Notes under the pieces: model-generated | Told to the model about the DNA's origin: nothing | Seen by the model: only the letters and a program-made list of their open reading frames with translations | Databases searched by the model: none | DNA from: an uncultured Acholeplasmatales bacterium | GTDB taxonomy: Bacteria > Bacillota_I > Bacilli_A > Acholeplasmatales > Anaeroplasmataceae | Direction: 5' to 3' | NCBI GenBank assembly: GCA_944324795.1 | Contig: CALUXR010000019.1 | Location: 1-33,674, forward strand | Length of the DNA stretch: 33,674 nucleotides | Program-made: the position numbers and the translations under genes | Shown: one piece after another, positions 5,906 through 20,585 of the stretch | How the letters are laid out: the number at the start of each line of letters is the position of its first letter | Numbering within the stretch: the first letter of the stretch is position 1

Positions 5906-6768
5906 ACAGCCACCTTACCTTTAATACCTTTATAAGGATTATAATCAGTTAATATGAAATCTTCATATTTAAAATCAAAAATAGATTTAACATTAGGATT
6001 AATCTGCATATGTGGTAATGGTCTAGGTGTCCTAGTTAATTGTTTATTAACTTGTTCTAAATGATTTAAATAAATATGAGCATCACCTATAGTGTGAACA
6101 AATTCACCAACTTCAAGACCACAGACTTGAGCAATCATCATCGTAAATAAACTATATGAAGCAATATTAAATGGTATACCTAAAAAAACATCACCAGAAC
6201 GTTGATATAACTGACATGATAATTTATTTTCATTGACATAAAATTGCATAAAACTATGACATGGAGGTAAAGCCATATCTTTAACTTCTTTAGGATTCCA
6301 CGCAGATATTATTAATCTTCTAGAATTAGGATTTGTTTTAATATCATTAATTAAATTACTAAGTTGATCCACACCATCAAAATTACGCCATTGTTTTCCA
6401 TAAACTGGCCCTAAATCACCCCATTTATTAGCAAAATCTTCATCTAATTTAATTTTTTGGGCAAATTCTTCAATTGTTTCCCCTTTAAATTCATCACTCT
6501 TACTATATTTAGCATATGGCCAATCATTCCAAATTCTAACATCATTTAAAACAAGCGGCCTAATATTAGTTGAACCTGATATAAACCATAATAATTCATG
6601 AATTATACTTTTTAAATGAACTCTTTTAGTAGTAAGTAAGGGGAAACCTTCATTTAAATCGAAATGCATCTGATAACCAAATATAGATATAGTACCTGTA
6701 CCTGTCCTATCATCTTTTTTATGACCATTTTCTAAAATATAACGACATAAATCTAAATATTGCTTCAT
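5902..6768 (-). CDS. thyA: Thymidylate synthase (ThyA)
   Basis: 288 aa. It converts dUMP to dTMP with methylene-tetrahydrofolate. The active-site Cys is Cys170 in [12 protein letters not shown]. The dUMP/phosphate Arg residues are at 21 and 150-151 (NSRR), and [13 protein letters not shown] and the C-terminal KVAV end are conserved. The acidic insertion at about residues 85-115 is that of the longer Lactobacillus-type ThyA. Upstream it overlaps the GNAT-AlkD gene and downstream folA, each by ATGA. Confidence 0.97.
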
Positions 6769-17809: not shown

Positions 17810-17832
17810 AAAAAAGGGGAATTAATCCCCTT
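17810..17832 (-). terminator. Terminator of the SipW/TasA-like operon
   Basis: AAGGGGA (17814-17820) and TCCCCTT (17826-17832) form a 7-bp stem with a five-base loop. On the minus strand it is followed by six Ts. It ends the operon whose last gene stops at 17846 and lies just before the ABC-pair promoter. Confidence 0.88.
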
Positions 17833-17845
17833 AAAGTATAAAATA

Positions 17846-19096
17846 TTATAAATAAGCTATTTCATGTGTAATAGAATTAAAATAACCAATAAGCGTATTA
17901 TCAGTATATGTAACTTTATACCAATTATCTCCCTTGCTACTATCTTCTGCATAAATAACTTCATATCTAGATCCAAAACTCATATTTTCATTTACTAATT
18001 GATGATATAAAATCAATTCTTGTTGAGGCATATTTTTTATTATCCAATAACACATATTAAGAATAGCTTCTTTTTGCTCATCAGATAATATTTCTGAACC
18101 ATTATATTTTGAATCAATTACACTTATAACCAAATTAGAAGATTCAAACTTAGCTTTACAAAGAATCTTAAAACCATTATCAATTGCTTGATACATTGAT
18201 ATTTCATAATTATTATGATTTAAAATATATTCTTTAGAGACATATAAGCCTACACTTAATTGAACATTATTTTTTCCTACTATATGTATATGTTGAATAT
18301 TTGAAAGATTAACATCTTCTGAAGTATTTCCGCCACCAAAAGTAATCCCAATAACATTTTCATTTTCAATAGCTAAATTTAAATTTGCTATATCAATATA
18401 TATTACATTAGGAAGACTTGAACTAATAATATTAAAAACATCATTTTGTAAATTAACAGAGTTATTATATGATGATAATATAATTTTATATGCATAACTA
18501 ATTTCAACATCTATATCAAATAGTTCATTTTCAGCATTGTAAAAATAAATATTTCCATCACTCAACTGCATAGTCGAAATATTAGTGTATGAATCAATAA
18601 TATCACCCGTAGTGAAATCTCTAACATATTCAAAATAATCATTTTTTGAAATAATATTATTTGCAAAAATAATTTTATTGTAATATGCTAGACAATTTTG
18701 CCTATAATCATCAATTGAAAAATTTGAAAAATCAAAAATAAATTGAATTTCTAATATTTCTTTTTGAGTCTTACAATCAATTTTTTTATAAATAGCAAAT
18801 TTTAATATTTCATTTTTTGTGGCATTATTAAAATATATTTGTAAGCTTTCTAATTTATCACCTGGATCTACCATATTAGATAATTCTAAAGGCGTACCAG
18901 AGACGTGAAACCCGGAATTTTTTAAAATTTCTTTTTGATTATCAATTGATATATTAGCATTAACATTTAAATTACCACTACCATTAATTTTAGCTGATGT
19001 TGCTGCATATATAGCTAAAGGTAGAGAAATACTAATAATTATTGATAGTGATAAAATAGTAAAAAGTGTTGCTATTAAGCGAATTTTTCTATGCAT
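17846..19096 (-). CDS. Secreted protein with SipW-type signal peptide, unknown function
   Basis: 416 aa from the ATG at 19096, which overlaps the signal peptidase stop by eight bases; a GTG at 19105 is also open. The N-terminus MHRKIRLIATLF...LAIYA-ATSAKINGSGNLNVNA closely parallels that of the 188-aa protein of the same operon (GIWA-ATAAKITGTDGQLSV). Both resemble SipW-dependent signal peptides, with likely cleavage after the Ala near residue 31. The mature part has a beta-rich outline and many Asn/Ser/Tyr. Lone Cys residues are at roughly 110, 135, 305 and 345. No known domain is recognised. It is inferred to be an accessory, anchor or minor component of the structure made by the 188-aa protein. 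Confidence 0.75.
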   Translation of the reverse strand: MHRKIRLIATLFTILSLSIIISISLPLAIYAATSAKINGSGNLNVNANISIDNQKEILKNSGFHVSGTPLELSNMVDPGDKLESLQIYFNNATKNEILKFAIYKKIDCKTQKEILEIQFIFDFSNFSIDDYRQNCLAYYNKIIFANNIISKNDYFEYVRDFTTGDIIDSYTNISTMQLSDGNIYFYNAENELFDIDVEISYAYKIILSSYNNSVNLQNDVFNIISSSLPNVIYIDIANLNLAIENENVIGITFGGGNTSEDVNLSNIQHIHIVGKNNVQLSVGLYVSKEYILNHNNYEISMYQAIDNGFKILCKAKFESSNLVISVIDSKYNGSEILSDEQKEAILNMCYWIIKNMPQQELILYHQLVNENMSFGSRYEVIYAEDSSKGDNWYKVTYTDNTLIGYFNSITHEIAYL

Positions 19097-19868
19097 TATT
19101 ATCACTACCCCTTCTATTTGTATTAATTTTTAAAATAATATTAACTTTCTTGTTGCCATTATTTATAATTTTAATTGGTTTACCATCTTTAGTTTGTAAT
19201 CGTAGATAAAGATTGACAGGTTTAATATTAGATATATAAGCTTTATTCATTCTATTATAGTTTGAAATAACAACATGTTTCTTCTTTTCTTCAGGCTCTT
19301 CAGTCAATAACATAACTAATTCCCAACTTAAATAGATTAACATTATTATACAAGGAATAATAATTAAACAAATAATACCAATCCTAGACACTACAAAACT
19401 AATAATATCATTTAAAACGGGATTTAAAGGCTTTCCAACTCCTAAAACAAAATCATAAGGAACATAAAAAGTATCATCATTTGGATTACTTGTTCCTTTA
19501 GTTAAATATGAATAATTACCAAATTCATCAACTTTTATATCAATTATTTCATGAATCCAAATCGCTTTATTACTCATATCTAAATCATCTATATTTTTAC
19601 CATAATTAGCAACATCACGATAAAAAGCTATAATATCACCAATTTGATATTCTTCTTTTTTATTAATTGCTACGACATCACCAATATAAAGTTCGCTTGC
19701 TTCCATACTTTTAGATTGAATTATTCCAAGTCTAATTCCTAATATATTAGTATGTGTAGATAATGTTGTAATAGCACAAATAATTGAAAAAATTAAGACA
19801 AAAAGAAAAAGGAGGTCTAATATAGCATTTAAAACAAATGATAATGTTTTATTTTTAGATAATTTCAT
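19089..19868 (-). CDS. sipW: SipW-type (ER-type) signal peptidase I
   Basis: 259 aa. An N-terminal membrane helix (~12-36) is followed by an outer catalytic domain with the serine motif SKSMEASELYIGD (Ser54 before Met55). The base is a His (His106, WIHEII) instead of the bacterial Lys, then YLTKGTSNPNDD (Asp131/132). A second helix (~158-188) and a basic cytosolic tail (~190-259) complete it. Ser/His chemistry marks the SipW/archaeal/ER branch, which in Bacillus processes TasA and TapA. Here it is flanked by two genes whose products carry matching signal peptides, so they are its probable substrates. A strong AAAAGGAGGT site precedes it. The extra basic tail is longer than in Bacillus SipW. 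Confidence 0.88.
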   Translation of the reverse strand: MKLSKNKTLSFVLNAILDLLFLFVLIFSIICAITTLSTHTNILGIRLGIIQSKSMEASELYIGDVVAINKKEEYQIGDIIAFYRDVANYGKNIDDLDMSNKAIWIHEIIDIKVDEFGNYSYLTKGTSNPNDDTFYVPYDFVLGVGKPLNPVLNDIISFVVSRIGIICLIIIPCIIMLIYLSWELVMLLTEEPEEKKKHVVISNYNRMNKAYISNIKPVNLYLRLQTKDGKPIKIINNGNKKVNIILKINTNRRGSDNNA

Positions 19869-19906: not shown

Positions 19907-20473
19907 TTAACTAGCAACATTCAAATCCATTTCTAAAGAAAAACCTGAATTATTAATTGCAGCGCCATAATTACCGTTATATGTAATAGTAACAGTAAGT
20001 GTAATTGAAGATTTTTCGCCTTCATTTGAAGGATCAATAGTTAATACACCACTATTATAACCATCACCTGTAACTTTAACACTAAAGTTACTATTATCTA
20101 CTAATTCTACACTTAAAGTACCATCTAAAGCAGTTAAATCATCTGTATAATCATTTGTAACAGTTATAGTAAATGATTTAGATTTATTCTCATCTGTTTC
20201 TGCATAAGTATATGAAGGTAAGTTTACAGTTTTTGTAGCATAATTTTGTGATGCATCATCTTCAACACTTGTATCAAATGTTATGGTTTGTTTATCACTT
20301 TCGCCAAAATTAAATTCAATAGTAGCTAAAATATCAGTTGTTGCTGTAACTGATAATTGACCATCAGTACCTGTAATTTTAGCTGCTGTAGCTGCCCAAA
20401 TACCTACACATAGTACTACTAGCACTAATGCCATCGCTGTTAATGTAGAAAATATTCTAAATTTTCTTCTCAT
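19907..20473 (-). CDS. TasA/camelysin-like secreted surface protein
   Basis: 188 aa. The N-terminus MRRKFRIFSTLTAMALVLVV is followed by GIWA-ATAAKITG, closely like the TasA signal region (GTWA-AFND). Cleavage by the adjacent SipW-type peptidase is expected near Ala27. The mature part is Thr/Ser/Asp/Asn-rich, acidic, without visible Cys in its body, and built of alternating beta strands (VNLPSYTYAE, SFTITVTNDYTDD, SSITLTVTITYNGNYGAAIN), as in the single-domain beta-sandwich fibre proteins TasA/CalY. No cell-wall sorting signal is seen. It is the first gene of the operon, with GGGAGG as ribosome site. Its promoter is a perfect consensus carrying a G8 tract in the spacer. Family assignment rests on signal type, composition and neighbours. 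Confidence 0.8.
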   Translation of the reverse strand: MRRKFRIFSTLTAMALVLVVLCVGIWAATAAKITGTDGQLSVTATTDILATIEFNFGESDKQTITFDTSVEDDASQNYATKTVNLPSYTYAETDENKSKSFTITVTNDYTDDLTALDGTLSVELVDNSNFSVKVTGDGYNSGVLTIDPSNEGEKSSITLTVTITYNGNYGAAINNSGFSLEMDLNVAS

Positions 20474-20502
20474 TTTTTATTTTCCTCCCTCTTTCTTTGT
20501 TA

Positions 20503-20531
20503 ATTATACCCCCCCCGTATAGTTTTGTCAA
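20503..20531 (-). promoter_or_regulatory. Consensus sigma-A promoter with poly-G spacer (likely phase-variable)
   Basis: On the minus strand TTGACA (20526-20531), a 17-bp spacer (20509-20525) and TATAAT (20503-20508) match the consensus at all twelve hexamer positions and the optimal spacing. Eight of the 17 spacer bases next to the -10 are G. Loss or gain of Gs by polymerase slippage would give 15-, 16-, 18- or 19-bp spacers and lower activity, which is how several phase-variable surface-protein promoters work. It drives the TasA-like/SipW operon. Confidence 0.93.
20509..20516 (-). repeat. Homopolymeric G8 tract inside a promoter spacer
   Basis: Eight consecutive C on the plus strand (G on the minus strand) directly abut the -10 hexamer. 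It is the longest G/C run I see in this A+T-rich window; the next I noticed is five Gs near 9165. Its exact position within the spacer argues against chance. Confidence 0.95.
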
Positions 20532-20540
20532 GCGCTTTCA
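20527..20540. promoter_or_regulatory. cre-like palindrome overlapping the -35
   Basis: AAGCGCTT (20530-20537) is a perfect palindrome, and AAGCGCTTTCA agrees with the right part of the CcpA-binding cre consensus; the left three positions do not fit. It overlaps the first bases of the -35 hexamer, so a bound protein would be expected to repress. Which protein binds, if any, is not known. Confidence 0.4.
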
Positions 20541-20555
20541 TGTTGTTATAAAGCC

Positions 20556-20585
20556 AAAAAACGCTTTTAAATTTATAAAAGCGTT
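20556..20585 (-). terminator. Terminator of the two small genes upstream
   Basis: AACGCTTTTA (20560-20569) pairs with TAAAAGCGTT (20576-20585), and six Ts follow on the minus strand. It lies between the stop at 20613 and the promoter of the TasA-like gene, so the latter starts a separate transcript. Confidence 0.88.

Follow-up and report, generated by a model that had tools for sequence, protein, structure and literature searches.

An operon for two exported proteins and a SipW-like signal peptidase, in an uncultured, gut-type bacterium of the Anaeroplasmataceae, is preceded by a perfect promoter with eight consecutive Gs in its spacer. A slippage-type phase-variable promoter of the porA, tp0126, or vlp kind is very probably the best explanation of this arrangement, because the same promoter has different run lengths in close relatives. 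In the proposed mechanism, the G8 tract would be a contingency locus at which slipped-strand mispairing in replication adds or removes Gs. With each G gained or lost, the -35 and -10 would shift in distance and in helical phase relative to each other, and the strength with which RNA polymerase initiates at the operon would be set in this way. Output of the two secreted proteins and their dedicated signal peptidase would then vary, heritably and reversibly, among cells of a single clone. The promoter is one of a set of G-tract promoters, found in its own genome, across its family, and in further gut lineages, which for the most part drive exported proteins. The architecture, a tract length that varies while the hexamers stay, and the association with export genes are shown by the sequences, whereas the slippage rate, the effect on transcription, the length of greatest strength, and the benefit, which may be bet-hedging against immunity, phages, or niche change, are inferred.

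The promoter, TTGACAAAACTATACGGGGGGGGTATAAT, lies at 20503-20531 on the minus strand of the window, by which we mean the whole stretch of 33,674 nucleotides that was analyzed. Read along 20531..20503, it is TTGACA-AAACTATAC-GGGGGGGG-TATAAT, exactly the TTGACA, 17 bp, and TATAAT, with G8 filling half of the spacer, that had been claimed. Pattern scan placed the -35 hexamer at 20526..20531, where TTGACA is kept in four of the five operon-bearing congeners, and the -10 hexamer at 20503..20508, both perfect. Between them lie the left spacer part at 20517..20525, whose 9 nt are the commonest left length among family promoters, and the G8 tract at 20509..20516, the proposed slippage site, which supplies 8 of the 17 spacer bases and directly adjoins the -10. 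The promoter is the sole perfect TTGACA-N15..19-TATAAT in the window, but such a match is not rare by itself, as it arose in 29 of 100 shuffles and occurs 24 times in the whole 1.70-Mb genome. The G8 tract is the only run of seven or more Gs in the window, where shuffles expect 0.08 seven-mers, and the rare thing is the combination of the tract with a perfect promoter. A terminator-like stem found by stem scan at 20560..20585 parts the promoter from the preceding gene, and no strong candidate other than the 12-of-12 promoter lies between that stem and the first gene. A ribosome-binding site, GGGAGG, can be read directly from the sequence at 20484..20489 (minus strand). A palindrome-like box, TGAAAGCGCTTGACA (20526-20540, minus strand), overlaps the -35, and similar boxes are found in several or most congeners. 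The box resembles a LacI/CcpA-type operator and may add regulation atop the switch.

What the promoter drives is an operon for export, encoded throughout on the minus strand. The first gene (19907..20473) starts 29 bp past the promoter and encodes a 188-amino-acid exported protein, whose signal segment is strongly conserved in alignment while its mature part diverges. A 259-amino-acid SipW/ER-type signal peptidase (19089..19868) follows, then a second exported protein of 419 amino acids (17846..19105) whose start overlaps the peptidase gene, and a terminator-like stem with a T-run (17814..17832) ends the operon. Both nonpeptidase proteins carry N-terminal export segments. In the peptidase, the ER-type Ser and His motifs S54-M55, IWIH106E, and LTKGxSN are invariant across six genomes. 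Its scores nevertheless fall below the curated cutoffs (55.9 of 190 bits for NF046067 and 48.6 of 51.85 bits for TIGR02228), and thus the motifs support an enzyme that probably works like SipW rather than a filed member of the family. In Bacillus subtilis, secreted proteins are likewise encoded with a SipW-type signal peptidase in tapA-sipW-tasA, an operon controlled by SinR and Spo0A and for which we know of no homopolymer switch.

Whether the first protein resembles TasA is another matter. The AlphaFold model is a beta-sandwich of middling confidence (pLDDT 73), and comparison of the model to known structures with Foldseek and VIA-align gave weak Ig-like/beta-sandwich matches only (best Foldseek E of 0.007, best Z of 7.1). 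No Pfam match to TasA/CalY (camelysin) was found up to an E of 5, no TasA chain appeared in a PDB profile search with the protein, and no TasA entry stood among the listed fold matches of the model. Because neither sequence nor fold match confirmed TasA, the label "TasA-like" is a guess from operon context and the predicted beta-sandwich, and the lack of a detectable TasA match sets the operon apart from that of B. subtilis. Thus, of the operon make-up originally claimed, the SipW-type peptidase stands by its motifs and subthreshold matches and the exported proteins by their N-terminal segments, while the TasA-like identity remains a guess.

The tract varies in length among relatives. The operon's peptidase was found in five further species of the genus, and where TTGACA and TATAAT are kept, the orthologous promoters have G8 in a 17-bp spacer (the window), G6 in 16 bp (G002), G8 in 18 bp (G006), G8 in 15 bp (G003), and G9 in 18 bp (G007). 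The fifth congener, G004, keeps the operon but has lost the tract, with a weaker TTGATA-17-TAAAAT in the same place. Aligning the promoter across relatives had been suggested beforehand as a check, and the outcome, G6 to G9 with hexamers conserved in four of five congeners, was the one foreseen, the test being one between genomes, as assembled. Moreover, G002 and G006 are 98.5 to 98.9% identical over 8 kb, and their promoters are identical for 120 bp upstream of -35 and for 54 bp from -10 on, yet one has G6 and the other G8, as slippage predicts. In G006, 38 bp with the ribosome-binding site and start region are duplicated in tandem after the promoter (L074, about 6260-6320), but not in the near-twin G002. 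Near-identical paralogue promoters also differ in G number alone, with G8 and G9 in G481, G8 and G9 in G291, and G8, G9, and G10 in L150/L227. Among 41 near-identical promoter pairs, which are not independent of one another, the number of Gs differed in 13 and was the same in 28, and one promoter has G8 in all of G024, G026, and G032. The slippage switch originally predicted thus finds support in comparative tests on assemblies, namely in the variable tract, the hexamers conserved in relatives, and the exported-protein operon.

The single switch originally described is one of many such promoters, and a second is present in the same genome. The whole 1.70-Mb genome has three runs of seven or more Gs, two of them inside perfect TTGACA-17-TATAAT promoters, and exported-protein genes stand downstream of all three. 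The second G8 promoter (G000:C3:75700-75728) drives another exported protein, which likewise has a SipW-like peptidase of its own. The operon behind it (L071 2701-7001; G000:C3:75700-80000) continues with an McrB/MoxR-like AAA ATPase (PADLOC PDC-M26A, 3.5e-40) and a DUF2357 protein, and it may be a candidate switchable defense-like system. The third run, a G7 whose promoter context is weaker, lies in a type IV pilus-like cluster that encodes two prepilin-like proteins, both with large passenger regions (L072 5074-6606 and 8704-10320; G000:C28). The G7 precedes one of them, and before the other stands a TTGACA/TATAAT promoter in which the G run is interrupted (GGAGGGG) and may be a tract that has decayed.

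Beyond this genome, the signature recurs across the family and in distant lineages. In 55 family genomes, GGGGGGTATAAT had 47 matches in 20 genomes, whereas the reversed control had 2 and the poly-C CCCCCCTATAAT had 3. Nearly all of the 47 have TTGACA, TTGACT, or TTGAAA at promoter distance. With just three family matches, poly-C was rejected as an equivalent signature. Matches in 160 genomes of the order fell inside this family save one, and 395 Bacilli genomes had 63 matches in 26 genomes, with none for the control. A stricter pattern found at least 120 stretches in 84,980 species genomes, where about ten are expected by chance for the whole collection (our estimate, from base count alone with equal base frequencies). 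Among the matches listed were Clostridia, Bacilli, Saccharibacteria, Spirochaetia, Streptobacillus, Helicobacter, Blautia, and others, and cultured species such as Blautia luti (L167) have the signature as well. The stricter pattern had zero matches in 2.9 million viral contigs, and a phage origin of the signature was rejected on that ground. Strict patterns undercount the members, as G007 has variants with G9 followed by TTATAAT in two copies and an interrupted GGGGGAGGG tract (C1:76996-77024, C14:6081-6109, and C16:20667-20696), the last variant perhaps a locked switch.

The genes behind G-tract promoters are unrelated apart from being exported. By a simple, crude hydrophobicity rule, and with neighboring genes rather than whole genomes as background, the first gene was export-like for 26 of 38 promoters in the family versus 16 of 112 neighboring genes (p=9e-10), for 18 of 18 versus 7 of 35 in other Bacilli, and for 76 of 106 versus 110 of 617 in named genomes (p=1e-27). 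In one genome, G481, a stretch of 19 kb has eight G-tract promoters, of which seven are almost identical and stand each before a paralogous secreted-protein gene; among copies with identical flanks, one has G8 and others have G9. This paralogous secreted-protein array (G481:C6:8343-27066 and C41:6217-6247; L252, L253, and L254) resembles a combinatorial antigen system. We lean toward the broader view that poly-G spacer promoters occur as genome-wide sets in uncultured gut commensals from several lineages, a single design serving both unrelated genes for exported proteins and tandem antigen arrays, and that surface variation thereby becomes combinatorial, as in pathogens.

Which tract length corresponds to the ON state is less simple than had been predicted. 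Ordinary TTGACA/TATAAT promoters in five related genomes peak at a spacer of 16 to 17 bp, whereas family G-tract promoters have spacers of 13 to 20 bp, most commonly 18 bp. Spacers of at least 18 bp are found in 24 of 38 family G-tract promoters versus 25 of 124 ordinary promoters (p=1.4e-6). Because G-tract promoters are often at 18 to 20 bp, G8 with 17 bp may not be assumed to be ON, and as a general rule, that equation is unsupported. The shift may mean that attenuated states were caught in many of the assemblies, or else that a poly-G spacer works best at a slightly greater length. A negative correlation between left-spacer length and number of Gs in the named genomes was set aside, as the search pattern itself bounds total spacer length.

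How else the tract might be explained was considered. The G-run might be an unchanging component of the promoter, structural or bound by a protein, that serves a regulator or an A-like DNA geometry and whose length drifts without functional switching. The strong bias of G over C (47 versus 3), the G that directly adjoins -10 in nearly all cases, the palindrome-like box overlapping -35 in several congeners, and the one length common to many close pairs would all suit such an element. Near-identical promoters, however, differ in tract length with nothing else changed, no fixed sigma-70 geometry tolerates all spacers of 13 to 20 bp alike, the genes downstream have no relation beyond export, and in porA and tp0126 expression is switched by just such an arrangement. 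We consider a static element unlikely. It is distinctly improbable, too, that the tract slips and the spacer changes without useful effect while another promoter or regulator controls the operon. G004 does keep the operon with a tract-less, weaker-looking promoter in the same place, but the interval from the upstream terminator to the first gene offers no other strong candidate, exported genes in various lineages keep their tracts, and the strength of sigma-70 promoters is known to depend on spacer length.

Error or chance might also produce a G-run, either by faulty sequencing or assembly of a homopolymer or by a random run falling inside a promoter. The genomes are metagenome assemblies, homopolymers are error prone, and a difference of one base counts as weak evidence when just one assembly has it. 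Moreover, contig ends fell within 150 bp of 5 of 28 tracts in metagenome assemblies versus 0.3 expected, in a set not chosen beforehand, an excess that fits mixtures of lengths and equally repeats or sequencing trouble. The same design nonetheless recurs in many independent genomes and assemblies with controls near zero, two-thirds of the genome's runs of seven or more Gs sit in perfect promoters, and the viral contigs gave no match. As to the existence of the tract, an artifact is already refuted, and overall, we regard it as very improbable. Two further candidates were discarded. Reiterative transcription was ruled out because transcription is expected to start downstream of the tract, which is thus not transcribed, and loss of mismatch repair as the source of tract variability was ruled out by a full-length mutS1 in the window's genome, with a mutS1 match in all 55 family genomes. 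Slippage would therefore work against functioning mismatch repair, as in Neisseria, and the intact mutS1 would slow slippage but not abolish it.

Slippage in a promoter is itself a mechanism of a known kind, with precedents in Neisseria porA, Treponema tp0126, and Mycoplasma vlp. The promoters described here share three features of the porA type, a mononucleotide tract between -35 and -10, a length that varies between close genomes with conserved flanks, and exported products. In Neisseria meningitidis, the porA poly-G between -35 and -10 gives high expression at 11G, intermediate at 10G, and low at 9G (PMC3639595). The window promoter also joins a poly-G spacer to an exported or surface-type product, but porA encodes an outer-membrane porin of a Gram-negative pathogen, whereas the window operon belongs to an uncultured Anaeroplasmataceae-type bacterium, has its own signal peptidase, and shares its promoter architecture with many unrelated loci. 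In Treponema pallidum, tp0126 has a poly-G between -35 and -10 with an optimum at a 17-nt spacer, and the tprL tract, which adjoins the start site, has a variable length in vivo, 7 to 11 G (PMC7864442). The tp0126/tpr genes are alike in that poly-G promoters serve several surface-protein genes and unlike in that they encode outer-membrane proteins of a pathogen, with no SipW operon. In Mycoplasma hyorhinis, every member of the Vlp surface-protein family has a promoter homopolymer in which indels give ON and OFF (PMC10502178). Vlp is the closest multigene precedent, to be compared with the G481 array, but its tract is poly-A, not poly-G, and serves one lipoprotein family of a pathogen.

Among open-licence papers, we found no report of such a switch for the Anaeroplasmataceae or for SipW/TasA operons, in agreement with the original statement that none was known to have been described for a SipW/TasA-type operon, and nothing specific on homopolymer phase variation in gut commensals. 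What is new is that such promoters stand at many loci in uncultured gut commensals. Their number and wide distribution were the surprise and bear on a question that the field has explicitly left open. Found in uncultured bacteria of the intestine and rumen, they speak for the bias at issue there and open the question to tests on existing metagenomic reads, with one simple sequence signature. Ultimately, G-tract promoters flag secreted proteins of little-known commensals as under fluctuating selection.
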